This document shows, piece after piece, positions 41,062-60,963 of a stretch of DNA of 64,000 bases. This stretch comes from Mycolicibacterium sp. HK-90. Its GTDB lineage: Bacteria; Actinomycetota; Actinomycetes; Mycobacteriales; Mycobacteriaceae. Numbering within the stretch: the stretch's first letter is position 1; each line of letters begins with the position of its first letter. The position numbers were made by a program, and so were the translations under genes. The DNA is taken from the NCBI RefSeq assembly GCF_030486405.1, contig NZ_CP129613.1, forward strand, positions 4,588,001-4,652,000, read 5' to 3'. The notes below the pieces were generated by a model. The model saw only the letters and a program-made list of their open reading frames with translations, did no database searches and was not told the origin of the DNA.

Positions 41062-41627
41062 GCTTCGTCAGCGAACCTGTACTCGCCGGCCCGCACCCGT
41101 TCCAGCATCGCCTCGGTCCAGGTCGCGTTGGCACCGAAGACACCGCTCCACAGGTCCAGGAGATGCTGGGCGTGCGGTGGCTGCTGCGGATCGGGCCAGT
41201 GGGGCTTCATCGCCTGCAGTTCGTCGGTGATCGTGCGACTCGTCGCCAGTTGTTCGGCCAGCAATTCGGCGACCCGGTACCGCGGCAGGCTGCGCATGAA
41301 CGCGATGCCTGCGCCGAGTTCCTCGATGTCGGGGCTCACCAGAGCCGCCTCGAGGAGCCGGAAGAACTCGGTGTCGCCGGCAGCGGTCACGGCGTAGACG
41401 ACTCGTCCCGGCCCCCGCGGGCTGACCTCCGAACGTACCGACCGGAGTTTGTCCTCACGCTCGAGTTGTTTGACCGCGTGATAGATCGACGGCGGCTTGA
41501 CCGCGGTCCAGGTGTCCACCCGCCACGACATGAGTTCCCGGTGCACCGCGTACCCGTGCGCTTCACCGAGCGCGCGGACCACGCCCAGGACCAACAGCCG
41601 GACCGTGGGTGCGGCTACGCCAGCCAC
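41058..41627 (-). CDS. PadR-family transcriptional regulator
   Basis: A 189-residue protein with the PadR winged helix at the N-terminus (RLLVLGVVRALGEAHGYAV, PPSIYHAVKQLERE, GRVVYAVTAAG) and a C-terminal helical dimer domain. GTG at 41627 overlaps the 3' end of the upstream VOC gene by 13 nt, so both are one transcript. It may regulate itself and the VOC gene. The target is unknown. Confidence 0.88.
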   Translation of the reverse strand: MAGVAAPTVRLLVLGVVRALGEAHGYAVHRELMSWRVDTWTAVKPPSIYHAVKQLEREDKLRSVRSEVSPRGPGRVVYAVTAAGDTEFFRLLEAALVSPDIEELGAGIAFMRSLPRYRVAELLAEQLATSRTITDELQAMKPHWPDPQQPPHAQHLLDLWSGVFGANATWTEAMLERVRAGEYRFADEA

Positions 41628-42325
41628 CGCTGAAGATCCGTGATCGCCCGCAATTCGGTAGCCGCAGCTTCAGTCTCGACGGGCGTCGGATCCATTGAAT
41701 CCAGTTCGGCGCGAACCGAATCCGCGATGCCGTCATCGCCCATCGCGATGGCGAGTTCGATCCGATCGGCGAGCGCCCTGATCAATTCGATTCGCGGCGC
41801 GCTGTCGCGGTACCTGCTCAATGCCGTATCGAGTGCCCGGGCCGCGAGCACGTCGTCCTCCTTGAAGTCCCGGAAGATCGCCACGTTGTCGAGCGCCTTC
41901 GCCAAACCGGACAATGCGCGCGAACCGCCGTAGGTTATCTCGGCCTCGTCGCGCCGGATGAACACCACGCAGTTGCCCGACGGGTCGTACAGGCAGAACC
42001 GGCTCTGCCCAGGGCGCAACCGCCTGATCCGTGGGAGCGCCGACACGGGCAGGTGCCCGTAGTGCGCGCGCAGTCCGGTGGAGAAGGCGGCGTGGTAGCT
42101 CGCAACCTCGTCGACCAAGACCAGGCACCCGCCGGACAGTTCGTCGGCGGCATTCAGCCCGGGTGCGGGCTCCTTGAAGTGGAGATCGATGCCGTCGAGC
42201 GAGAACGCCAGATGCAAGTAGGGCCTGGTCTGCTGGTCGGAGACGTCGAAGCCCAGCGCTCGGTAGAACTCGATGGTCGACTCCGGGGCGGTGCACGGCA
42301 GCAGCGGGATCGTCGTCGGAAGCAT
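41615..42325 (-). CDS. VOC (glyoxalase/bleomycin-resistance) superfamily protein with helical C-terminal extension
   Basis: A 236-residue protein. Residues 1-130 form a VOC fold (FYRALGFDVSDQQTRPYLHLAF, FCLYDPSGNCVVFIRR). The remaining ~100 residues are helical (AIFRDFKEDDVLAARALDTAL) and not part of a typical glyoxalase. No enzymatic activity can be assigned: the usual metal-ligand pattern is incomplete by eye. It starts with ATG at 42325, after the rho terminator, and is followed by the overlapping padR. Confidence 0.75.
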   Translation of the reverse strand: MLPTTIPLLPCTAPESTIEFYRALGFDVSDQQTRPYLHLAFSLDGIDLHFKEPAPGLNAADELSGGCLVLVDEVASYHAAFSTGLRAHYGHLPVSALPRIRRLRPGQSRFCLYDPSGNCVVFIRRDEAEITYGGSRALSGLAKALDNVAIFRDFKEDDVLAARALDTALSRYRDSAPRIELIRALADRIELAIAMGDDGIADSVRAELDSMDPTPVETEAAATELRAITDLQRWLA

Positions 42326-42369
42326 ACGCCGAGGGTAGTCAAAGTTGAGTAGTTTGTCCGCGCACGCAA

Positions 42370-42396
42370 AAGGCCCCCGCCGTCGGCGAGGGCCTT
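42370..42396 (-). terminator. rho gene terminator
   Basis: A 12-bp stem with one mismatch (arms 42370-42381 and 42385-42396, AAGGCCC-C-CGCC/GGCG-A-GGGCCTT) and a 3-nt loop. On the minus strand the 3' arm ends in CCTTTTGCG. It lies 16 nt after the rho stop, a classic intrinsic terminator ending the rho transcript. Confidence 0.85.
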
Positions 42397-42411
42397 GCGC
42401 GTCGAACCCGG

Positions 42412-44427
42412 TTAGTCGACGTCCATGGAGCCCGGGGCGGTCTTGGAGACCTGCACCAGGAACTCGTAGTTGTTCTTGGTCTTGCGCAGCTGGCTCATCA
42501 GCAGGTCGATGGCCTGGTGGCTGTCGAGCCCCGAGAGGACGCGGCGCAGCTTGTGCACGATCGCGAACTCGTCCGGCGAGAGCAGCAGCTCGTCCTTACG
42601 GGTGCCGGACGGGTTGACGTCGACCGCCGGGAACACCCGGCGCTCGGCGATCTTGCGGTCGAGCTTGAGCTCGGCGTTGCCGGTGCCCTTGAACTCTTCG
42701 AAGATCACGGTGTCACCGGTCGAGCCGGTCTCGACCATCGCGGTGGCGATGATGGTCAGCGAGCCGCCGTGCTCGATGTTGCGCGCCGCGCCGAGGAACC
42801 GCTTCGGCGGGTACAGCGCGGTGGAATCCACACCACCGGACAGGATGCGGCCCGAGGCCGGGGACGCGTTGTTGTACGCACGACCCAGACGGGTGATCGA
42901 ATCCAGCAGCACCACGACGTCCTTGCCCTGCTCGACCAGGCGCTTGGCGCGCTCGATGGCCAGCTCGGCGGCCTGGGTGTGGTCTGACGGCGGCCGGTCG
43001 AAGGTCGAGGCGATGACCTCACCCTTCACCGAACGCTGCATGTCGGTGACCTCTTCAGGACGCTCGTCCACCAGGACCACCATCAGGTGGCACTCCGGGT
43101 TGTTCTTGGTGATCGCGTTGGCGATGTCCTGCATGATCGTGGTCTTACCGGCCTTGGGCGGTGACACGATCAGGGCACGCTGGCCCTTGCCGATCGGCAT
43201 GATCAGGTCGATCACGCGAGTGGTCAGCCGCTCGGGCGTGGTCTCCAGGCGCAGCCGCTGGTTCGGGTACAGCGGGGTCAGCTTGGTGAAGTCGGGCCGG
43301 TTCTTGGCGTTCTCCACCGGGCCGCCGTTGACGCTGTCGAGACGCACCAGCGGATTGAACTTCTGCCGCGGGTTGTTGCCGCCGCTTTCGCCCTCGCGGG
43401 GCACCCGGACCGCGCCGGTGACGGCGTCACCACGGCGCAGACCGTTCTTGCGCACCATGTTCATCGACACGTACACGTCGTTCGGTCCGGCCAGGTAGCC
43501 CGAGGTGCGGACGAATGCGTAGTTGTCCAGGACGTCGAGGATGCCGGCGACCGGCTGGACGACGTCGTCCTCGCGCAACTCGGTGTCGTTACCGCCCTCG
43601 GCGCCCCGCTCGCCGCGACGGCGGCGGTCACGGTCGCGGAACCGGCGACCCCGGCGACCCTGACGGCCCTCGCCGTCGTCGTCACCGTCGGCGTTGGAGT
43701 TCCCGCCGCGGTTCTGCTGGTTGTCGGACTGGTCGGACTGATCGCGCTTGTCCTGCTTCTGGTCGCGATCCTGCTTCTGATCGCGCTTGTCGTCCTGCTT
43801 GGCGTCGGACTTGTTCTCGCCGTCGGACTGCTCGCGCTTGTCGCGCCGTTCCTGCCGCTCGCGCTTGTCCTGCTTGGCAGGCTTTTCCTGGGCCTCGGCG
43901 GGCGGTTCGGCGCCCTTGGTCTCGGTACCGGCCGCGACCGGGGCCTCGGCCTTCGCCTCGGCGGGGGCCGAATCCTCGCCCGCATCGGTCTTGACGGCAT
44001 CCGCGGCCGGGGAACCGGCCTGGCGCGACGAACCGCGACGCTCGCGGCGACGGGGCGCCGGCTGCTCGGCAGCTTCGGTTCCGGCGTCCGGCTGGACGTC
44101 GGTGGGGGCCTGTTCAGGAGCCTCGGCGGTGGCACCGTTGGACTCACCGCGGTGGGCGCGGATAGCTGCGATCAACTCACTCTTGCGCAAACCGGACGCG
44201 CCTTCAACACCGATTTCCTTGGCCAGCGCTCGCAGCTCAGGCAGCACCATGGTCGACAGCGACGCGGGACGGGCGCTCGAAGCGCGCCGCGCGGTGTCCG
44301 ATCCGGGCGCAGAGGCAGCAGCCGGCGCCGCGGTGTCAGCGGTCGCAGTGCTTTCAGATGTCACGGCGTTCGGCAAATCCCCAGTGCCGTTGGCGTTGTC
44401 AGCCGTGAAGAGGTCCGTATCTGTCAC
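42412..44427 (-). CDS. rho: transcription termination factor Rho
   Basis: A 671-residue RNA-dependent ATPase, far longer than E. coli Rho (419). N-terminal SAP-like Rho_N (about 55-95), then a roughly 190-residue low-complexity acidic/basic insertion rich in Glu, Asp, Lys, Arg and Gln (QDKRDQKQDRDQKQDKRDQ), then the RNA-binding domain and the motor: Walker A SPPKAGKTT, VVLVDERPEEV, SRLGRAYN-like LDSITRLGRAYN, and Q/R loops. The insertion is a known actinobacterial trait that lets Rho bind structured RNA. ATG at 44427. It is the Rv1297 orthologue, downstream of thrB. Confidence 0.97.
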   Translation of the reverse strand: MTDTDLFTADNANGTGDLPNAVTSESTATADTAAPAAASAPGSDTARRASSARPASLSTMVLPELRALAKEIGVEGASGLRKSELIAAIRAHRGESNGATAEAPEQAPTDVQPDAGTEAAEQPAPRRRERRGSSRQAGSPAADAVKTDAGEDSAPAEAKAEAPVAAGTETKGAEPPAEAQEKPAKQDKRERQERRDKREQSDGENKSDAKQDDKRDQKQDRDQKQDKRDQSDQSDNQQNRGGNSNADGDDDGEGRQGRRGRRFRDRDRRRRGERGAEGGNDTELREDDVVQPVAGILDVLDNYAFVRTSGYLAGPNDVYVSMNMVRKNGLRRGDAVTGAVRVPREGESGGNNPRQKFNPLVRLDSVNGGPVENAKNRPDFTKLTPLYPNQRLRLETTPERLTTRVIDLIMPIGKGQRALIVSPPKAGKTTIMQDIANAITKNNPECHLMVVLVDERPEEVTDMQRSVKGEVIASTFDRPPSDHTQAAELAIERAKRLVEQGKDVVVLLDSITRLGRAYNNASPASGRILSGGVDSTALYPPKRFLGAARNIEHGGSLTIIATAMVETGSTGDTVIFEEFKGTGNAELKLDRKIAERRVFPAVDVNPSGTRKDELLLSPDEFAIVHKLRRVLSGLDSHQAIDLLMSQLRKTKNNYEFLVQVSKTAPGSMDVD

Positions 44428-53845: not shown

Positions 53846-54187
53846 TTGAGCAAGCTCATCGCGGCGGCGCTGGCCACCGGAGCCCTGGGCGTGGGAATGG
53901 CGCTGGCCGCGCCGGCCGCGGCGGCACCGAACTGCTCCGACATCGTCGACCAGATCAACAGCGAGGACGGCTACACGCCGACCAGCGGTGAGAAGTGGAG
54001 CTGCGCCACCGAGATTCAGGCCAACAAGTGGGCCACCTTCCCGGGCGCGATCACCGAGAAATGGGCGAGCGCTCCCGCCAACACCGCCGACAAGTGGGCC
54101 AATGCCCCCGGCGAGGTCGCCAAGAAGTGGAACGACTTCCCCGGCAAGTTGAAGGACAAGTGGTCCGGTGGCGGTGAAGAGGAGTAA
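53846..54187 (+). CDS. small secreted protein with 11-residue KW repeats
   Basis: A 113-residue exported protein. A Sec signal peptide (residues 1-27, ending PAAAA) precedes two cysteines (C30, C53) and a repeat tract. Tryptophans sit at 51, 62, 73, 84, 95 and 106, exactly 11 apart, in units such as NKWATFPGAIT and KKWNDFPGKLK. The tail is acidic (GGGEEE). TTG at 53846 is preferred, because AGGGGGAA lies 8 nt upstream and it begins the signal peptide; the frame opens earlier without a ribosome site. A strong hairpin follows. I do not recognise the family. A second protein with the same repeat lies at 60202-60573. Confidence 0.85.
   Translation: MSKLIAAALATGALGVGMALAAPAAAAPNCSDIVDQINSEDGYTPTSGEKWSCATEIQANKWATFPGAITEKWASAPANTADKWANAPGEVAKKWNDFPGKLKDKWSGGGEEE
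53990..54169 (+). repeat. 33-bp coding repeat, six diverged units
   Basis: Residues 49-108 of the secreted protein are 11-residue units beginning (E/N/D/K)-K-W. Consensus K-W-x-x-(F/A)-P-(G/A). The DNA copies are well diverged, so conservation is at protein level. Confidence 0.85.
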
Positions 54188-54207
54188 ACCTCCGCACACC
54201 GCCCTAC

Positions 54208-54244
54208 ATCAGTGGTGATCCGTCAACAGCGGATCACCACTGAT
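54208..54244 (+). terminator. intrinsic terminator after the KW-repeat protein gene
   Basis: A perfect 15-bp stem (arms 54208-54222 and 54230-54244, ATCAGTGGTGATCCG/CGGATCACCACTGAT), 7-nt loop, followed by CTGTTTCC. It lies 20 nt after the stop and before the convergent SDR gene, which ends at 54278. Confidence 0.8.
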
Positions 54245-54277
54245 CTGTTTCCGGGCTCCTCCGCCCAGTCGCGCCGA

Positions 54278-55258
54278 TCAGCGCTTGTCGAGCTCGGCGT
54301 TGACCATCGCCTCGAGCTCCTCGCGGCCCCGGCTGCCGAGGGCGTCACCGAGTGCGGACGCCAGCCGGTCGAATGGGTCCTCCAGCGGCAACGTGGCCAG
54401 GTTCTTCGCGAGTTCCGGAACTGTCCAAAGCCCGGCTTGCTTGTCGACCTGCGCACCACGCGTCCAGCCCTGGTTGACCGCGATTGCACCGCCGCGCACC
54501 GATAGCACCTGGCCGGTCAGGGGACACCCCTCGCTGCTCAGGTACGCGACGACGGGGGCCACCACCATAGGGTCCTTCGGGTCCGGTTGCCCCACTGACG
54601 GCGTCTGATCCATGCCGGGCACCGAGTTGGTCAACCGAGTACGCACCATCGACGGGCTGACGCAGTTGACTCGGACCCCCAGCCGCCGCAGTTCCAGCGC
54701 GTGCACCACGGTCATGGCCGCGACTCCGGCGTTCGCCGCCGCGTAATTCGTTTGTGTGGGAAGCGGATTGAGCAGGCCCGAACCCGAAGCGGTGTTGACG
54801 ATGGCGCGGTCGGCGCGCACCCCTGCGTCCACCCGGCTGCGCCAGTACGACGTGGCGCAACGGCTCACCGCGAAGGTCCCTTTCAGCTTCACCGCGACGA
54901 CGTCGTCAAATTCGGCCTCCGACAACTGTTCGAGGCCCTTGTTCACCTCAATGGTGGCGTTGTTGACGACGGCATGCAGGTCGCCGAACTCCGCGACGGC
55001 CAGGTCGACCATGCGCTGGACGTCCGCCCATTTGGTGACGCTGCCGTTGTCTGCCACCGCTCGGCCACCGCGCCCACGAATCTCGTCGACCACTGCGGCG
55101 GCGACGCCGTCATCGCCTCCGCGCCCATCGATTTGCACGCCGGGGTCGTTCACCACGACGTTCGCACCCGCTGCCGCGAGATACAGCGCCTCTGCCCGCC
55201 CGATACCCCGACCCGCGCCGGTCACCAGCACAGTCCGTCCAGCCAATTCGCCCGTCAC
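54278..55258 (-). CDS. short-chain dehydrogenase/reductase family protein with altered active site
   Basis: A 326-residue SDR with the cofactor loop TGAGRGIGRAEAL, a long NDPGVQIDGRGGDDG loop typical of the HSD17B4-like acyl-CoA group, and a C-terminal extension of about 60 residues. S158 and Y172 are in the expected places, but the position four after Tyr is N176 (NYAAANAG) instead of Lys. NNA is followed by Thr instead of Gly. Activity may be reduced or the substrate unusual. Start ATG-equivalent at 55258. Divergent from a TetR regulator. Confidence 0.85.
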   Translation of the reverse strand: MTGELAGRTVLVTGAGRGIGRAEALYLAAAGANVVVNDPGVQIDGRGGDDGVAAAVVDEIRGRGGRAVADNGSVTKWADVQRMVDLAVAEFGDLHAVVNNATIEVNKGLEQLSEAEFDDVVAVKLKGTFAVSRCATSYWRSRVDAGVRADRAIVNTASGSGLLNPLPTQTNYAAANAGVAAMTVVHALELRRLGVRVNCVSPSMVRTRLTNSVPGMDQTPSVGQPDPKDPMVVAPVVAYLSSEGCPLTGQVLSVRGGAIAVNQGWTRGAQVDKQAGLWTVPELAKNLATLPLEDPFDRLASALGDALGSRGREELEAMVNAELDKR

Positions 55259-55301
55259 AACGCCCCTCCAAGTCTCATGCCGTCGTCAGTTCAATACACC
55301 T

Positions 55302-55326
55302 GATGCACTTATATACTGAGTGTATC
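55302..55326. promoter_or_regulatory. imperfect palindrome in the SDR/TetR divergent promoter
   Basis: GATGCACT-N9-AGTGTATC matches in seven of eight arm positions and covers an A/T-rich TATATACT core that could be a -10 element. It lies 29 bp before the TetR gene and 44 bp before the SDR gene. A likely TetR operator, by position. Confidence 0.5.
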
Positions 55327-55354
55327 GCTGCCGTCGGTGCACTACGCTCAGCCC

Positions 55355-56008
55355 ATGCCGGGCGAAGTCGGACGTCGCGAACGCAAGAAGCAACTCACCC
55401 GGCGGGCGCTGGTGGATGCGGCCGTCCGACTGTTCACGGAACGGGGCTACGACCAGACGGCCGTGGCTGACATCGCGGAAGCCGCCGACGTCAGCAAACG
55501 CACGTTTTTCCTGCACTTCCCCACCAAGGAGGACGTGCTTCTGGCCGACGCCGGCTCACGGGTCGACCTGGCTGTGCAGGCAATCGAGGGACGGCGGCCG
55601 GACGCGCCGATGCGCGAGGTGCTCGCCGACGCAACGCAGAACATGATCGCCAACACCGCTGACGGTGACCTGCCGAAGGGGGTGGCGGCCCTCCGTGCCC
55701 AGTTGGTGGTCACGACGCCCGCAGTTCAAGCGCGTGTATTGCACACAACTTTCACCGCGCAGACTCGTATCGCCGCAGCGCTGCGTGAGGCGTACCCGGA
55801 AACGCTCGACGACATCGCCGCGGCCAGCATCGTCGGCGCGCTGATGGGTGCCATCAGCGCCGCCGCCGTCACCAGCCTCCAACGCGGGGAGCCACCCGCG
55901 CGGACCCGGGCCGCGATGCAGCACGCAGCCGAGATCACCCTCGACTACGTGGAGTCGCTCAGCCCGTCCACAACCGGTGCGCACACCGAAGAACACCGAA
56001 ATCCCTAG
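55355..56008 (+). CDS. TetR-family transcriptional regulator
   Basis: A 217-residue regulator with N-terminal helix-turn-helix (TAVADIAEAADVSKRTFFLHFPTKED, about residues 40-64). ATG at 55355 (PGEVGRRERKKQLTRR) is preferred over GTG at 55337. Divergent from the SDR gene, with an imperfect palindrome between them. Its TAG stop is shared (CTAG, 56005-56008) with the convergent ABC ATPase gene. Confidence 0.9.
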   Translation: MPGEVGRRERKKQLTRRALVDAAVRLFTERGYDQTAVADIAEAADVSKRTFFLHFPTKEDVLLADAGSRVDLAVQAIEGRRPDAPMREVLADATQNMIANTADGDLPKGVAALRAQLVVTTPAVQARVLHTTFTAQTRIAAALREAYPETLDDIAAASIVGALMGAISAAAVTSLQRGEPPARTRAAMQHAAEITLDYVESLSPSTTGAHTEEHRNP

Positions 56009-56757
56009 GTGCGCAGCGCCATTTCCGACTCCCCCACCCCGAGCGCGGCGAGCAGCGCCTCACGATGGGCGACGAATTCCGGGTTGCGGTAGGTGCGGGC
56101 CTCCGGGGTGTGAAAGTCCAGCTGGCGGTCGACGACGAAGGCGCCGCCGTCGAGCACGAGCACCCGGTCGGCCAGGGTCACCGCCTCGTCGACATCGTGG
56201 GTCACCAACAGCACCCCGGGCTCGTACTTCCCGCACAGCTCCTGAAGCAGGTGATGCATGCGCACCCGAGTGAGGGCATCGAGCGCCCCGAAGGGTTCAT
56301 CGGCCAGCAGCAGCGCGGGATTGCGGACCAGCGACCGGGCCAGTGCGACGCGCTGCTGCTCTCCACCCGACAGTTCGTAGGGCCAGGCCTGTTCCCGTCC
56401 GGCCAGGCCGACGTCGGCGAGCACGGCACTCGCTCGCTGATTGACGTCGCGGCCGGACAGCCCCAACGCCACGTTGTCGAGTACCCGTAGCCACGGCAGC
56501 AGCCGGGAATCCTGGAACACCACCGAAACGTCACGGGCCACGAACAGGTCGCCGGCCCCGTCGACCCCGTGGTCGAGCCCCGCCAACGCACGCAGCAGCG
56601 TGCTCTTGCCCGAGCCACTGCGCCCCAGCAGGGCGACGAACTCGCCCTTGCGGATGGCCAGCTCCACCTCATCGAGAATCGTTGTCCCGCCGAATGATCG
56701 GGACAACCGACGAACGACGGCCACCTCCTCGGTCAGGTTCCCAGTGCGCGCCGCCAC
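56005..56757 (-). CDS. ABC transporter ATP-binding protein, sulfonate/nitrate/taurine type
   Basis: A 250-residue SsuB-like ATPase. Walker A GRSGSGKST, signature LSGGEQQRVALARSL, Walker B LLADEPFGALD, and switch His in VTHDVDEA. GTG at 56757 is chosen; the open frame extends to 57696, but that part is the antisense shadow of the permease gene. It overlaps the permease gene by 25 nt. It powers import with the genes at 56733 and 57608. Confidence 0.92.
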   Translation of the reverse strand: MAARTGNLTEEVAVVRRLSRSFGGTTILDEVELAIRKGEFVALLGRSGSGKSTLLRALAGLDHGVDGAGDLFVARDVSVVFQDSRLLPWLRVLDNVALGLSGRDVNQRASAVLADVGLAGREQAWPYELSGGEQQRVALARSLVRNPALLLADEPFGALDALTRVRMHHLLQELCGKYEPGVLLVTHDVDEAVTLADRVLVLDGGAFVVDRQLDFHTPEARTYRNPEFVAHREALLAALGVGESEMALRT

Positions 56758-57611
56758 GACAGGGCCCTCCTCTCGATGGCCCGGACCACGTAGTCCCCGG
56801 TGAGACCGAACACCGCGTAGACCAACAGACCGACCACCACGATGTCCAACTGTCCGTACATCCGGGCCTGGGTCATCAGGTAGCCGATGCCGCTGGTGGC
56901 GTTGACCTGTTCGACGACCACCAGCGCGGTCCACGAGATGGTGACCGCGAGCCGCAGACCGGTGAAGAATCCGGGCAGGGCACCCGGGATGGCCACCTTG
57001 CGGATGAACTGGCTGCGCGACAGCCCAACGGTTTCGGCCAGTTCGACGTGGCGCAGATCGACGCCCTTGAGCTGTGCAGTGGTGTTGATGTACACGGGGA
57101 TCAGCACGCTGGTGGCGATGATGATGATCTTCATGGTGTCGCCGATCCCGAACCAGATGATCGCCAACGGGATGATGGCCAAGGTCGGCACCGCGCGCTT
57201 GACCTGAATCGGTCCGTCGACGATCGCCTCGCCGATGCGGCTCAGCCCCGAGATCAGCGCGAGCGCCAGGCCCAGTGCCACCCCGATGGCCAGCGAGATC
57301 GAGGCCAGCTTCAACGACGCGGCGATGTTCGTGGGTAACCGCCCGTCCGACCACATCTCGCCGATCGTGCGCACGATGTCCAGCGGAGGCGGCAAGGTCC
57401 GGGGATCGAGGATGCCGAGCTGCGAGGTGACGATCCAGATCGCCACCAGCAGCAGCGGTCCGATCGCCAACGAGGCCGGGATGGCCCGCCCGGGCCCCAG
57501 CCGGCGTCGGCGCTGCGTGCCCGACCGGTGTTCCAGGTGCGGATAGTCCTGGCGCTCGACGGCCTCCGCTTCCGCTGTCGCCGAAGAGGGAGCCGCGTGG
57601 ACGGTGGTCAC
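56733..57611 (-). CDS. ABC transporter permease, SsuC-like
   Basis: A 292-residue inner-membrane permease with about six helices and the EAA loop ELAETVGLSRSQFIRKVAIPGALPGFFTGLR typical of the sulfonate/nitrate/taurine family (motif spans about residues 191-221). GTG at 57611 overlaps the binding-protein stop by 4 nt. N-terminal 40 residues are cytosolic and basic. Confidence 0.92.
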   Translation of the reverse strand: MTTVHAAPSSATAEAEAVERQDYPHLEHRSGTQRRRRLGPGRAIPASLAIGPLLLVAIWIVTSQLGILDPRTLPPPLDIVRTIGEMWSDGRLPTNIAASLKLASISLAIGVALGLALALISGLSRIGEAIVDGPIQVKRAVPTLAIIPLAIIWFGIGDTMKIIIIATSVLIPVYINTTAQLKGVDLRHVELAETVGLSRSQFIRKVAIPGALPGFFTGLRLAVTISWTALVVVEQVNATSGIGYLMTQARMYGQLDIVVVGLLVYAVFGLTGDYVVRAIERRALSWRRALGT

Positions 57612-58666
57612 TGGTCGCCCGCCGAGTTCGCGTTGAGATCGGCGAACCGGGAATCGAATTCGTCCTTGGCGCGCAACTCTTTTCCGGCGAACCCACCGGA
57701 CTCCTGCAACAGGTCGATGGTCTCCTGCTGGGTGGCGATCAGCTCTTCGGTGAACCCCGGCACCGAGGTGCGCCCGTCAGCTTCGGCAATCGCCCGGGCA
57801 TCCTCCGGGCTGACCTTCTGGTCCTTGATCAGGTACTCGTCGATCCAGGTCTGCTTGTTCTCGTTGAGCCAATTTTCGGCGCGGTACCACGCGATGACGA
57901 ATTCCCGGATCGCCGCGGCACGGGCCGGATCCGACAATGCCTCCTGGCTGGCGTAGACGTAGTAGAGACCGGGGTAGGCGCCTGGGGCATTGGGGATTTC
58001 GATGCTCCCCTCCCCCTCGGTCGAGGCGAGGTAGCGCACCCGGTCCGGCTGCTTGAGCACCGCGGCGTTGACCTGCTCGGCACGCAGACCGTCGGCGAAC
58101 TCGGCCAATCCCAGGTTGACCGGCTGCACATCTTTGATGGTCAGGCCGGCCGACTTGAGGTTGCGCAACACGACGGCCTGCTGAGCCGTGCCTTCGTTGA
58201 TCGCAATCTTCTTGCCGGCCAGGTCTTTCAGGGATGCGATACCCGACTTCGGCGAGGTCGCCAGCACCAGGCCGTTCCCGTCGTATTTCACCGCACCGAC
58301 GATGGGCACCCCGGCATCCGAATACTGCGCGAGGATCGGCGGGACGTCACCGACTCGGCCCAATTGCGCATTGCCCGAGCGGATCGCCTCCAAGCGCAGT
58401 GGGCCGCTGCTGAAATTCGCGTAGGACACGTCGGCGCTGAGCCGGTCCTGTTCCCCGGAGAGTTTGAACAGGGTCTTGAGCCGGTTGGCGTCGTCGGCCA
58501 CCACCAGGGTGGTGCCTTGCGGAACCGCCTCCGGAATCGGGGCATCGGCGGACAGCCCGCCGGTGCCCGACGCACCGGATCCGGACGACTGGCAGGCGGC
58601 CGCCGTGACCACCACCAGAGCTGCGGCCACGATCACCCGGGCCAAGGGGGTCAATCGATTAGGCAT
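57608..58666 (-). CDS. ABC transporter substrate-binding lipoprotein, SsuA-like
   Basis: A 352-residue lipoprotein: lipobox TAAAC near residue 27 then a periplasmic-binding fold of the NMT1/SsuA type (SGNAQLGRVGDVPPILAQY, KDLAGKKIAINEGTAQQ). It should capture aliphatic sulfonates or related organosulfur compounds. ATG at 58666 starts the signal sequence; longer frames upstream are not supported. It lies 13 nt after the monooxygenase gene. Sulfonate rather than nitrate or taurine is inferred from the flavin monooxygenase neighbour. Confidence 0.9.
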   Translation of the reverse strand: MPNRLTPLARVIVAAALVVVTAAACQSSGSGASGTGGLSADAPIPEAVPQGTTLVVADDANRLKTLFKLSGEQDRLSADVSYANFSSGPLRLEAIRSGNAQLGRVGDVPPILAQYSDAGVPIVGAVKYDGNGLVLATSPKSGIASLKDLAGKKIAINEGTAQQAVVLRNLKSAGLTIKDVQPVNLGLAEFADGLRAEQVNAAVLKQPDRVRYLASTEGEGSIEIPNAPGAYPGLYYVYASQEALSDPARAAAIREFVIAWYRAENWLNENKQTWIDEYLIKDQKVSPEDARAIAEADGRTSVPGFTEELIATQQETIDLLQESGGFAGKELRAKDEFDSRFADLNANSAGDQ

Positions 58667-58679
58667 GCACGGTCCCCTG

Positions 58680-60035
58680 TCAGCTCGCGGCCGACACGGG
58701 AGCGTCCGCGCCGGTGGTGAATCGGTTGGCCGGCCTGTCCAAACCGAGATGGTCACGGAGGGTGGTGCCGGTGTATTCCTCGCGGAAGATGCCGCGGCGC
58801 TGCAACTCTGGGACGACGTGGTCGACGAACTCGGCCAGTGAAGACGGCAGCGCCGGCGGGATGAGGTTGAAGCCGTCGGCCGCACCGGTGGTGAACCATT
58901 CCTCGATGGTGTCGGCCACCTGTTCGGGCGTGCCGGCGAACAATCGATGTCCCCGACCGCTGCTGAGCCGGAGCAACAGCTCACGAACGGTCAGGTTGTC
59001 GGTCTCGACCAACCGTTTCACCAGCGCGAGCCGACTCTTGATGAACGTGTCGCCCGGATCCTCGGCCGGGAAGGTCAACTTCCGGTCGAGATCGTCCTTG
59101 GTGACCGTGAATCCGACGATGGCGCTGAGTTGTTCGAGCCCGTAGTCGGGGACGGTGAGTTCTTCGAATTCACGTTGCCGCGCGCGGGCCTCGGCTTCGG
59201 TACCGCCGATGATCGTCGACAGGCCGGGGAGGATGTGCACCTGGTCCGGGTTGCGGCCATGACGGCGGACGCGGGCCTTGACGTCGCGGTAGAAGTCGCG
59301 GGCCTCGTCCAGCGTGGGTTGCGCGGTGAAGATGGCCTCGGCGTAGCGGGCCGCGAGATCCTTGCCGGGCTCGGACGATCCGGCCTGGAACAGCACCGGA
59401 TGTCCCTGAGGTGAGCGCGGCACCTCCAGCGGCCCGGCGACGTCGAAGTATGGGCCGGAGTGGTTGATCGCGTGGATCTTGCCGGGATCCACAAAGCGCG
59501 GCGCGATCTTGTCACCGACGATGGCGTCGTCGTCCCAGCTGTCCCACAACTTTAAAGCGACCTGGAGGAACTCGTCGGCACGCCGGTACCGGTCCGCCGG
59601 GTCAGGGTGATTCGGCACCCCGAAGTTGGCCGCGGCCGACGCATTGGCGGTCGTCACGACGTTCCAGCCGGCCCGTCCCCGGCTCACGTGGTCGAGGGTG
59701 GCGAACCGGCGCGCCAAACCATAGGGATCGTTATAGGTGGTGGATGCCGTCGCGATCAGGCCGACGGTGGTGGTGGCCCCGGCCAGCGCGGCGACCAGGG
59801 TGACGGGGTCGAGCGCGTCGAACGGGCGAAACTCGGTCTGGTCCTTGAGTACCGGATGGTCGGCGAAGAAGACGGCGTCGAGCTTGCCGCGCTCGGCGAT
59901 GCGGGCCAACTCGATGTAGTGGGCGATATCGGTGATGCCCGACAACTCGGTTTCGGGAAGGCGCCACGCCGCTTCGTGCTGGCCGATGTTGCGCAGGAAT
60001 GCATTGAGGTGCAACTGCCGTGCGGGCGCAGCCAT
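58680..60035 (-). CDS. flavin-dependent monooxygenase, NtaA/SnaA/DszA family
   Basis: A 451-residue bacterial-luciferase-like enzyme using reduced FMN from a separate reductase. Family marks are HLNAFLRNIGQHEAAWR, FFADHPVLK, and TASTTYNDPYGLARRFATLDHVSRGRAGWNVVTT (about residues 96-126, characteristic of this group). Relatives oxidise nitrilotriacetate or dibenzothiophene sulfone. First gene of the operon with the SsuA, SsuC and SsuB-like genes, so desulfonation of an organosulfur compound for sulfur supply is likely. ATG at 60035 with GAAGGAG upstream. Confidence 0.92.
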   Translation of the reverse strand: MAAPARQLHLNAFLRNIGQHEAAWRLPETELSGITDIAHYIELARIAERGKLDAVFFADHPVLKDQTEFRPFDALDPVTLVAALAGATTTVGLIATASTTYNDPYGLARRFATLDHVSRGRAGWNVVTTANASAAANFGVPNHPDPADRYRRADEFLQVALKLWDSWDDDAIVGDKIAPRFVDPGKIHAINHSGPYFDVAGPLEVPRSPQGHPVLFQAGSSEPGKDLAARYAEAIFTAQPTLDEARDFYRDVKARVRRHGRNPDQVHILPGLSTIIGGTEAEARARQREFEELTVPDYGLEQLSAIVGFTVTKDDLDRKLTFPAEDPGDTFIKSRLALVKRLVETDNLTVRELLLRLSSGRGHRLFAGTPEQVADTIEEWFTTGAADGFNLIPPALPSSLAEFVDHVVPELQRRGIFREEYTGTTLRDHLGLDRPANRFTTGADAPVSAAS

Positions 60036-60144
60036 TGCGACGAGCTCCTTCGGTCGGTGAACGGGCTGCGTCTATTTGAGGGGGTGGGCTGTGCTGCGAG
60101 AACAGTTAAGATCAGCGAAATTTCAGCTAACTCGCCAGACAGCA

Positions 60145-60174
60145 CACGAGCGTGCGGTCACCCGCACGCTCGTG
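60145..60174 (-). terminator. terminator after the second KW-repeat gene
   Basis: A perfect 13-bp stem (arms 60145-60157 and 60162-60174, CACGAGCGTGCGG/CCGCACGCTCGTG) with tetraloop TCAC. It lies 28 nt after the stop at 60202 on the minus strand and before the monooxygenase operon. The T tail is weak. Confidence 0.7.
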
Positions 60175-60201
60175 ATGGAGGCAGTTGGCGTCAGCCGGGG
60201 A

Positions 60202-60573
60202 TCAGCCCAGGCCGGTCCACTTCTTCAGGACCTTGCCCGGGAAGCCGCCCCACTTTTCGGCGGTCTTGCCGGGGAAGCCGGCCCACTTCTCGGCCGTCTT
60301 TCCGGGGAAACCGGCCCACTTCTCCGCCGTCTCGCCGGGGAAGTTCGTCCACTTCTCCACGATCGGACTCTCGGGCAGGTCGACTCCGCCGGTGAGGGCG
60401 TTCTCGGCGGCGTCGGTGACGGCATCAGTGACCGACGAAGACACGCGGTCACACGGCGAGCAGCCGACGGTGCTGTTGCCCTTGGAGTCGGCCGATGCCG
60501 GCGCGGACAGCGCGACCGCGGCACCGATCGCGCCCGCGGCGAGGGTCGTGGCGATCAAACTCTTCTGAATCAT
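60202..60573 (-). CDS. small secreted protein with 11-residue KW-FPG repeats
   Basis: A 123-residue exported protein: Sec signal peptide (about 1-28, ending PASA), a CSPC pair (C38, C41), a short helical stretch, then the repeat tract to the C-terminus. Tryptophans at 75, 86, 97, 108 and 119 are exactly 11 apart, in units EKWTNFPGETA, EKWAGFPGKTA (twice), EKWGGFPGKVL and KKWTGLG. ATG at 60573 with GGGGA upstream; the longer frame to 60873 has no signal-like start. Same repeat as the protein at 53846-54187 but a different N-terminal part. The family is unknown to me. Confidence 0.87.
   Translation of the reverse strand: MIQKSLIATTLAAGAIGAAVALSAPASADSKGNSTVGCSPCDRVSSSVTDAVTDAAENALTGGVDLPESPIVEKWTNFPGETAEKWAGFPGKTAEKWAGFPGKTAEKWGGFPGKVLKKWTGLG
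60217..60357 (-). repeat. 33-bp coding repeat, four full units and a partial
   Basis: Residues 73-119 are tandem 11-residue units. The two units identical in protein differ at about four silent positions, so the repeat is kept by selection on the protein and is not a recent DNA duplication. Confidence 0.85.
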
Positions 60574-60963
60574 GGTTCCCCAACCTGTCGTATCCGACGC
60601 CGTCTGACGACGACGCCGATTTGACACGCTAGTCCCAGAACCGCGTGAGCGCTGTGTCGGCCGACCGCCCGCGATGGTTTGCTGTAGCTGCCCGGTCCTG
60701 GCCGGGACCACGACCGTGTTCGCCACGGCCCCGGCTGACGGGCCACTGAAACCGAACATCGGGCAACCGGCAGGTGAACAGCGGTGCGGCGACGCCCGCG
60801 GAGATGGGCTGAGCAGGCAGTTTCCGGATGTTCGCAGATGGGGGCGCCGACCGTCTCCGACGGGAAGATCCACGAGAAGTTCGTCGCTAATGCGAGATCC
60901 AGACTACCCGTCGGGCCCTGAAATGATCTTGCTCACGTTTTGCTGAAACAGCCGAAGCCGGGC
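60574..60963. other. intergenic region without supported gene
   Basis: 390 bp between the KW-repeat gene and the LLM oxidoreductase gene. Short open frames on both strands have no ribosome site or family features. I looked for a riboswitch or a clear promoter and found nothing convincing; the repeat-protein promoter must lie here. Confidence 0.6.

Follow-up and report, generated by a model that had tools for sequence, protein, structure and literature searches.

Paired genes with an 11-residue tryptophan and proline repeat in Mycolicibacterium sp. HK-90: an unnamed, apparently exported protein family with relatives in mycobacteriophages

A stretch of 64,000 nucleotides from Mycolicibacterium sp. 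HK-90 (contig NZ_CP129613.1, positions 4,588,001 to 4,652,000; called here the window) carries two short genes, gene A and gene B, whose products repeat an 11-residue unit containing tryptophan and proline. The question raised by this locus is to what kind of proteins these genes belong, how far such proteins are distributed and what they might do for the cell. A sequence-only reading had taken the two products for unrelated secreted proteins. Judged by their alignment, A and B are diverged paralogues belonging to an uncharacterised mycobacterial family, which also has relatives in mycobacteriophages, and the function that we favour for it is outlined below together with its rivals.

The repeat itself is beyond chance. 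The translations place Trp at residues 51, 62, 73, 84, 95 and 106 of A and at 75, 86, 97, 108 and 119 of B, and the period-11 Trp run of each protein was reached by none of 100,000 residue shuffles, so the positions and the strictness of the repeat described earlier hold for both proteins. At the DNA level the window has two occurrences of a four-unit W...P pattern spaced by 33 bases; 100 shuffles produced none. Both N-termini consist of a hydrophobic, signal-like segment followed by an A-x-A-type site (sequence and hydrophobicity scan), and each protein has two cysteines (C30 and C53 in A, C38 and C41 in B), in agreement with the signal peptides and cysteine pairs that had been reported. The products are thus probably exported and would consist of a short Cys-containing head followed by the repeat tract. 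The earlier coordinates of gene B are right, with the correction that the gene lies on the minus strand; the plus-strand frame at 60202 gives a peptide other than the gene B product. At the place of the TTG start of gene A, ATG stands in all six other gene A copies compared. The tract had also been called cationic, which does not survive calculation: its Lys residues are offset by Glu and Asp, and the mature forms, cut at sites placed by eye, carry net charges of -5 (A), -1 (B) and 0 (the form of phage Blue7).

The kinship of the two proteins was evident from BLASTP, which aligned A and B with 40% identity over 118 residues spanning the signal region and the repeats. When B was used as query in the genome of the window, it found itself and A (expectation value, E, 1.3e-14) and no other match below E 0.05; the two proteins are therefore not unrelated. 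The observation that their N-terminal parts differ stands for the mature heads, which taken alone are not alike (2147 of 5000 shuffles were as good), and fails for the signal region, which aligns. A and B are the only clear copies of the family in this genome, and the scatter that had been supposed within the genome is found instead across species and phages. Selection was estimated by the ratio of nonsynonymous to synonymous substitution rates (dN/dS). For gene B, 56 of the 120 possible pairs of 16 genes could be used (equal length, dS >0.05), and the median of 0.14 (range 0.03-0.30) indicates purifying selection; for gene A the median was 0.24 (range 0.13-1.66), with only 5 of 21 pairs usable.

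Neither Pfam nor NCBIfam gave a match above cut-off for the window proteins, which bears out the earlier statement that no named family has this pattern. Profile searches brought up relatives in other genomes of the genus (Mycobacterium in the broad sense; genomes and loci carry our internal labels G… and L…), and with the phage genes described below the family is indeed larger than two genes. The profile of phrog_6023, a PHROG of unknown function, matched B at 3.9e-18, best over the repeat (71-120), and A at 5.4e-20, best over 11-96, and at 1e-5 it reached 17 of 248 genomes of the genus and none of 14 control genomes. With a profile built from 14 members, matches at E 0.001 or below came from 66 of 297 genomes of the genus, many of the weak ones restricted to the signal-peptide end, and 21 of the 297 reached 1e-9; the gene B protein as query found 7 of 60 genomes at 0.001. 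A strict two-unit DNA pattern occurred in 22 of 396 genus genomes (reversed control 0), including two, G116 and G227, judged by eye to be chance matches. Across 298 genomes of the order the same pattern gave three matches, all in the genus, and a 29-row profile gave eight at 1e-6; six of these, all in the genus, were left after G437 and G133 had been dropped as spurious by eye (tandem DNA with neither signal nor head). The distribution of the family in the genus is patchy.

The diverged chromosomal members keep the spacing and alter the residues, as in the forms W..EAPGKLVQG (G065, G107), W.GAPAQV (G163) and Y.ALP..T.. (G005), while the member in G246 combines W..FP units with an A-type head. 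The number of W..FP units is three in gene B of G020 and G124, four in gene B of the window and six in gene A of G281; in the latter (L018, L056) eight Trp stand in register. A further branch of the family is possibly represented at L080-L083 (G213, G087, G109 and G291), where the encoded proteins are short, look exported and have a CSPC, CSNPC or CAPC head, after which come irregular APWExVF-like segments; the first three of these genomes have two matches each within about 0.6 kb.

The relatives outside the chromosomes proved to be phage genes. A tblastn search with one phage member matched 60 of 50,697 phage records, all of them mycobacteriophages with M. smegmatis as host, and no match covered less than 80% of the query (individual entries were listed for 40 of the records, and several phages are represented by two records). 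Examples that belong to phrog_6023 are Blue7 gp76, DaVinci gp73 and EagleEye gp78. When viral contigs were scanned with the four-unit pattern, 5 of the 52 stretches obtained encoded family members. A looser W...P pattern gave mostly noise on genome contigs, and no species counts are taken from it. With A or B as query 60 mycobacteriophage records were found each, in partial matches none of which covered 80% of either query; the best was EagleEye for B (42.5% identity over 71%), and that for A had 47.9% over 42%. B aligned with the EagleEye-type protein with 41% identity over 109 residues. Since the mature head of B taken alone aligned with the phage heads better than shuffles (as good in 0 of 5000 for EagleEye and 2 of 5000 for Blue7), the homology of B with the phage proteins reaches beyond the repeat. 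The phage proteins share the signal-like N-terminus, the CSPC head (with gene B) and the 11-residue K-W-x-x-F-P units; they differ in a longer N-terminus and an acidic and serine-containing tail, and in that they adjoin the repressor whereas A and B lie in a chromosomal locus. The head of gene A, compared with the head of B only and unlike it, is also different.

The maps of Blue7, Priamo, DaVinci and EagleEye all show the repressor first, then a small gene, the Cas4-like exonuclease and finally the repeat protein, so that the repeat gene is the third after the immunity repressor in all four maps (the Priamo repressor is annotated as two pieces). The Cas4-like exonuclease is present in 1017 phage records, and in 56 of these the identity is at least 80%. 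We considered whether the slot after cas4 is a general one for exported proteins and rejected this, as among 27 genes translated from this slot in 12 other phages with cas4 (a few were left untranslated) most look non-exported in the hydrophobicity scan and none is related to the repeat protein. The exceptions are prophiT49-3 gp37, which is signal-like, and Alvin gp67 and RER2 gp47, which have a hydrophobic segment. In the M. abscessus prophage prophiT49-3 (L286 2673-2993) a different signal-peptide-like protein stands two genes past cas4. The phage gene is under purifying selection as well (dN/dS 0.17-0.32 over the first 104 codons, from 6 pairs among 4 genes). Its guanine plus cytosine fraction is close to that of its surroundings (0.616 against 0.608 in Blue7, 0.614 against 0.603 in Priamo), as are those of A (0.670) and B (0.683) to that of the window (0.658), so that nothing about the direction of transfer follows from composition. 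A partial search of the open-licence literature found no published function of the phage gene.

In order to describe the repeat unit, 56 units were compared from 15 mutually related proteins of our own choice, with the 11 positions lettered a to k. Position a is Trp in 51 units, d is Phe, Ala or Tyr in 52, e is Pro in 55, h is Leu, Thr, Val or Ile in 50 and k is Lys in 40, and positions g, j and k are mostly charged or polar. On a helix with 11/3 residues per turn the mean hydrophobicity puts a, d, e and h on one side. The moment of the profile was 0.51 at 98.2 degrees, a value equalled or exceeded by 1.1% of column permutations (3.8% when Pro is set to zero), and single proteins gave 0.26-0.70 at this angle against 0.01-0.34 at 160-180 degrees. 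These values lend modest support to the unit being an amphipathic hendecad. Comparable periods are familiar from apolipoprotein and late embryogenesis abundant (LEA)-type helices, including the 11-residue repeat of apolipoprotein A-I; Pro in nearly every 11-mer and a fixed Trp are unusual in comparison with these, and no homology with them is claimed.

The reading that we prefer, and to which we would give an even chance, is that the repeat tract forms a proline-kinked amphipathic rod in the envelope. Each hendecad, 11 residues in three helical turns, would bring Trp (a), Phe, Ala or Tyr (d), Pro (e) and Leu, Thr, Val or Ile (h) to the same side, so that Trp and Phe would line one face of the rod. 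Outside the cytoplasmic membrane the rod would most likely lie on lipid or pack on other hydrophobic helices, and its length would depend on how many units it has. The gene is carried as an accessory near the repressor by some phages of cluster A (A6 and A16 where named), and there it would alter the envelope of the infected cell to the benefit of the phage.

Several points weigh against this reading. The hendecad support is modest, the 56 units come from related, chosen proteins, and one of the 15 proteins, P0029, does not show the hendecad signal (16% of permutations reached its value). It is unusual for a helix to hold a proline in every 11 residues, and short helices joined by turns, or disorder, are possible instead. 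The structure prediction that had been suggested as a check was carried out with AlphaFold2 and yielded models of low confidence, too uncertain to support a fold search: for A one long helix over residues 54-106 with a predicted local distance difference test score (pLDDT) of 59 and a predicted template modelling score (pTM) of 0.31, for B a pLDDT of 45 and a pTM of 0.17. Among solved structures no significant sequence match turned up (best E 0.062). The head of A has no detectable kinship to the head of B, and export, location and lipid binding are all deduced from the sequences. The low-confidence models, together with a unit number that varies from 3 to 6, would suit a disordered spacer or length-variable linker, in which repeats expand and contract with little demand on their sequence. 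The purifying selection and the fixed W and P of the units speak against such a linker, and we hold it to be very improbable.

The face occupied by the aromatic residues bears also on the proposal of the sequence-only reading that the tract binds the cell wall. In that case the surface Trp and Lys of each unit would contact the sugars of peptidoglycan or arabinogalactan, for which the signal-like N-terminus and the regular aromatic residues accompanied by Lys at k could be cited. The aromatics share their helical face with Leu, Thr and Val, which is the pattern of a buried face, and the net charge is near zero or negative; moreover, the named cell-wall-binding repeat families of Pfam and NCBIfam gave no match above cut-off, and in diverged members N-Y, V-W or G-W replaces K-W. 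A glycan binder is in our judgement improbable, and both it and the disordered spacer are less likely than the envelope rod or the exclusion factor considered next.

The position of the phage gene in the lysogeny module would fit a role in superinfection exclusion at DNA entry. According to this explanation, modelled on the Ltp lipoprotein of phage TP-J34, the exported hendecad rod would pair with the hendecad helices of an incoming phage's tape measure protein, or of its channel in the membrane, and block ejection; the chromosomal copies would then be exclusion factors, either domesticated or ancestral. Ltp of the S. thermophilus phage is a short exported lipoprotein of the cell surface that has a repeat domain, shares the repressor's lysogeny module, is transcribed in the prophage and stops injection (PMC3952083). 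To judge from the title of a 2013 paper on Ltp that PMC3952083 cites, its target is the tape measure protein. The likeness to the present family lies in the short exported repeat protein and its module; the differences would lie in the lipid anchor and in expression, as here, by eye, no Cys seems to follow the hydrophobic stretch directly (in A the first Cys is preceded by P-N, in B the sequence T-V-G-C38 comes about 15 residues past it) and expression in lysogens appears low.

The tape measure proteins themselves offer a second likeness, since such proteins with 11-residue W/F repeats are described in PMC3271669 and PMC5099701. In the tape measure protein of Blue7, the only one that we examined, 9 W/F pairs stand at lag 11, among them the run F421-F432-W443-W454; compared with 300 shuffles this is a z of 5.0. 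When a broad hydrophobic set is counted instead, lag 7 exceeds lag 11, as in any helix, which speaks against exclusion. The W/F spacing and the helical hendecad character are shared with our family, whereas tape measure proteins are far longer, are encoded in the tail module (in Blue7 away from the repeat gene) and, in residues 421-454 of Blue7, have no proline. Because profiles of tape measure families matched the phage forms with E of 0.11 and 0.64 only, which is not significant, and none was listed for A or B, the likeness is one of period and not of homology.

Published immunity data cut both ways. In PMC6550527 cloned repressors generally gave weaker homotypic immunity than lysogens, and the DaVinci clone rep-73 restored it to the lysogen level. 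We found that this clone (41377-43932 of JF937092) ends exactly at the end of gp73 (41377-41784), the repeat-protein gene, and together with the conserved place after the repressor in four phages this favours exclusion. The authors leave the cause open between two other explanations, a stabilised repressor and an extra stoperator (PMC6550527). The same paper states that lysogens of Gladiator (A6) and, earlier, EagleEye (A16) express the repressor and int/parABS only, with no evidence there for other defence systems, and that the infection patterns of cloned-repressor strains in general match those of lysogens, although Gladiator carries the repeat gene, as our tblastn search showed. RNA-seq reads of lysogens fall across the two genes that precede the repeat gene, the adjacent gene and cas4 (PMC6550527), and in a StarStuff lysogen expression is highest for the repressor and the two genes downstream of it (PMC5712189). 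The phage repeat gene may thus be expressed weakly at most in lysogens, and perhaps mainly in early lytic growth. Exclusion is further disfavoured by the lack of any match of Blue7 gp76, A or B to the PADLOC anti-phage defence profiles, and by the unrelated and mostly non-exported-looking genes in the slot of the 12 other cas4-bearing phages. Of the rivals of the envelope rod, superinfection exclusion by way of the tape measure protein is the strongest, though unproven and in our estimate unlikely. Its fullest version, in which the exported rod would act as a decoy or clamp for incoming tape measure hendecads, the phage gene would provide a second layer of homotypic immunity and the chromosomal pair would be a standing barrier to DNA entry, appears to us more doubtful still.

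The chromosomal setting was compared in 8 regions against the genes of the window. A and B are convergent at one place in 9 of 396 genus genomes (the window's included; matches on both strands of one contig), separated by about 4.3-4.5 kb in seven of them, about 6.1 kb in the window and about 0.2 kb in G281. The neighbours in the window look by eye like an acyl-CoA dehydrogenase (ACAD), a GntR regulator, an ABC transporter, LLM enzymes and a histidine kinase (HK), and the order ACAD-GntR-A-ABC-LLM-B-LLM-VOC-HK is kept in G141 and G339. SDR and TetR genes (54278-56008), which lie between A and the ABC transporter in the window and are absent in these two genomes, are either a recent insertion in the window or a loss elsewhere. 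In the stretches examined, A is missing from G049, and G124 is without A and also without the transporter and the first LLM gene; in G281 only A, the second LLM gene, HK and a remnant of gene B without signal segment are left, the genes between A and B being gone. The copy in G246 is at the window's own locus, beside relatives of VOC, LLM and HK (by eye), while G395, G005 and G040 have the repeat gene in a different setting. The W..EAPGKLVQG member of G065 (L289 4843-5220) and of G107 (L292) adjoins genes that we take to resemble rbpA, ppm1 and lnt, presumably serving lipoprotein and mannosyl lipid synthesis. A prophage origin of the window genes was rejected, as the neighbours look non-phage-like by eye and are kept in relatives. 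No phage genes were recognised in the distant neighbourhoods of G065, G107, G213 and G246, judged from the first 70 residues of each reading frame with no family search, and a search of plasmids with B (A was not searched there) gave no match.

Upstream of gene B a conserved footprint resembles a PHO box and reads GTTCACC-N4-GGTTGCC-N4-GTTCGGT in the window. In 15 aligned upstream regions GTTCACC is exact in 10, has a one-base variant in 4 and is absent in L070; the same heptamer is given for Streptomyces coelicolor in the review PMC4415409. Control of gene B by phosphate or by another response regulator is possible on this ground. Two further conserved blocks stand upstream of gene B on the minus strand at 60677-60688 and 60624-60632, GCTACAGCAAAC and CTAGCGTGT respectively, and AGCAAAC is found also upstream of 4 of the 8 gene A copies aligned, the window's not among them. 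An Rfam search gave no match, and a scan for promoters of the sigma-70 type found none. The coordinates of the features are collected in Table 1.

Table 1. Positions in the window of genes A and B, their parts and the footprint upstream of gene B
Feature	Position	Strand	Remarks
Gene A, repeat protein with signal-like N-terminus	53846..54187	+	113 residues, TTG start
Gene A, signal-peptide-like segment, residues 1-27 (end by eye)	53846..53926	+	sequence, hydrophobicity scan
Gene A, 11-residue tract, K50-W51 to W106	53993..54166	+	first unit within head, contains C53
Gene B, repeat protein with signal-like N-terminus	60202..60573	-	123 residues
Gene B, signal-peptide-like segment, residues 1-28 (end by eye)	60490..60573	-	sequence, hydrophobicity scan
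Gene B, head CSPC motif (C38-C41), common to phage proteins	60451..60462	-	
Gene B, 11-residue tract, K74-W75 to W119	60217..60354	-	
Gene B, PHO-box-like upstream footprint, 7-bp elements at 11-bp spacing beginning GTTCACC	60751..60780	-	conservation

Amphipathic repeats of 11 residues are known as such; for an exported-looking, proline-containing hendecad common to mycobacteria and phages no description was found in our partial search of the open-licence literature. The present analysis links an unnamed, apparently exported mycobacterial family to an uncharacterised gene in 60 phage records, from phages that can be grown on a laboratory host, and it points to the published difference in immunity between the DaVinci clones rep and rep-73, the cause of which was left open. 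The existing rep-73 plasmids could answer part of the exclusion question. If the third gene is the cause, it would be an envelope-acting exclusion protein made from a simple repeat; if it is not, a family of envelope proteins carried by phages would still be new ground.

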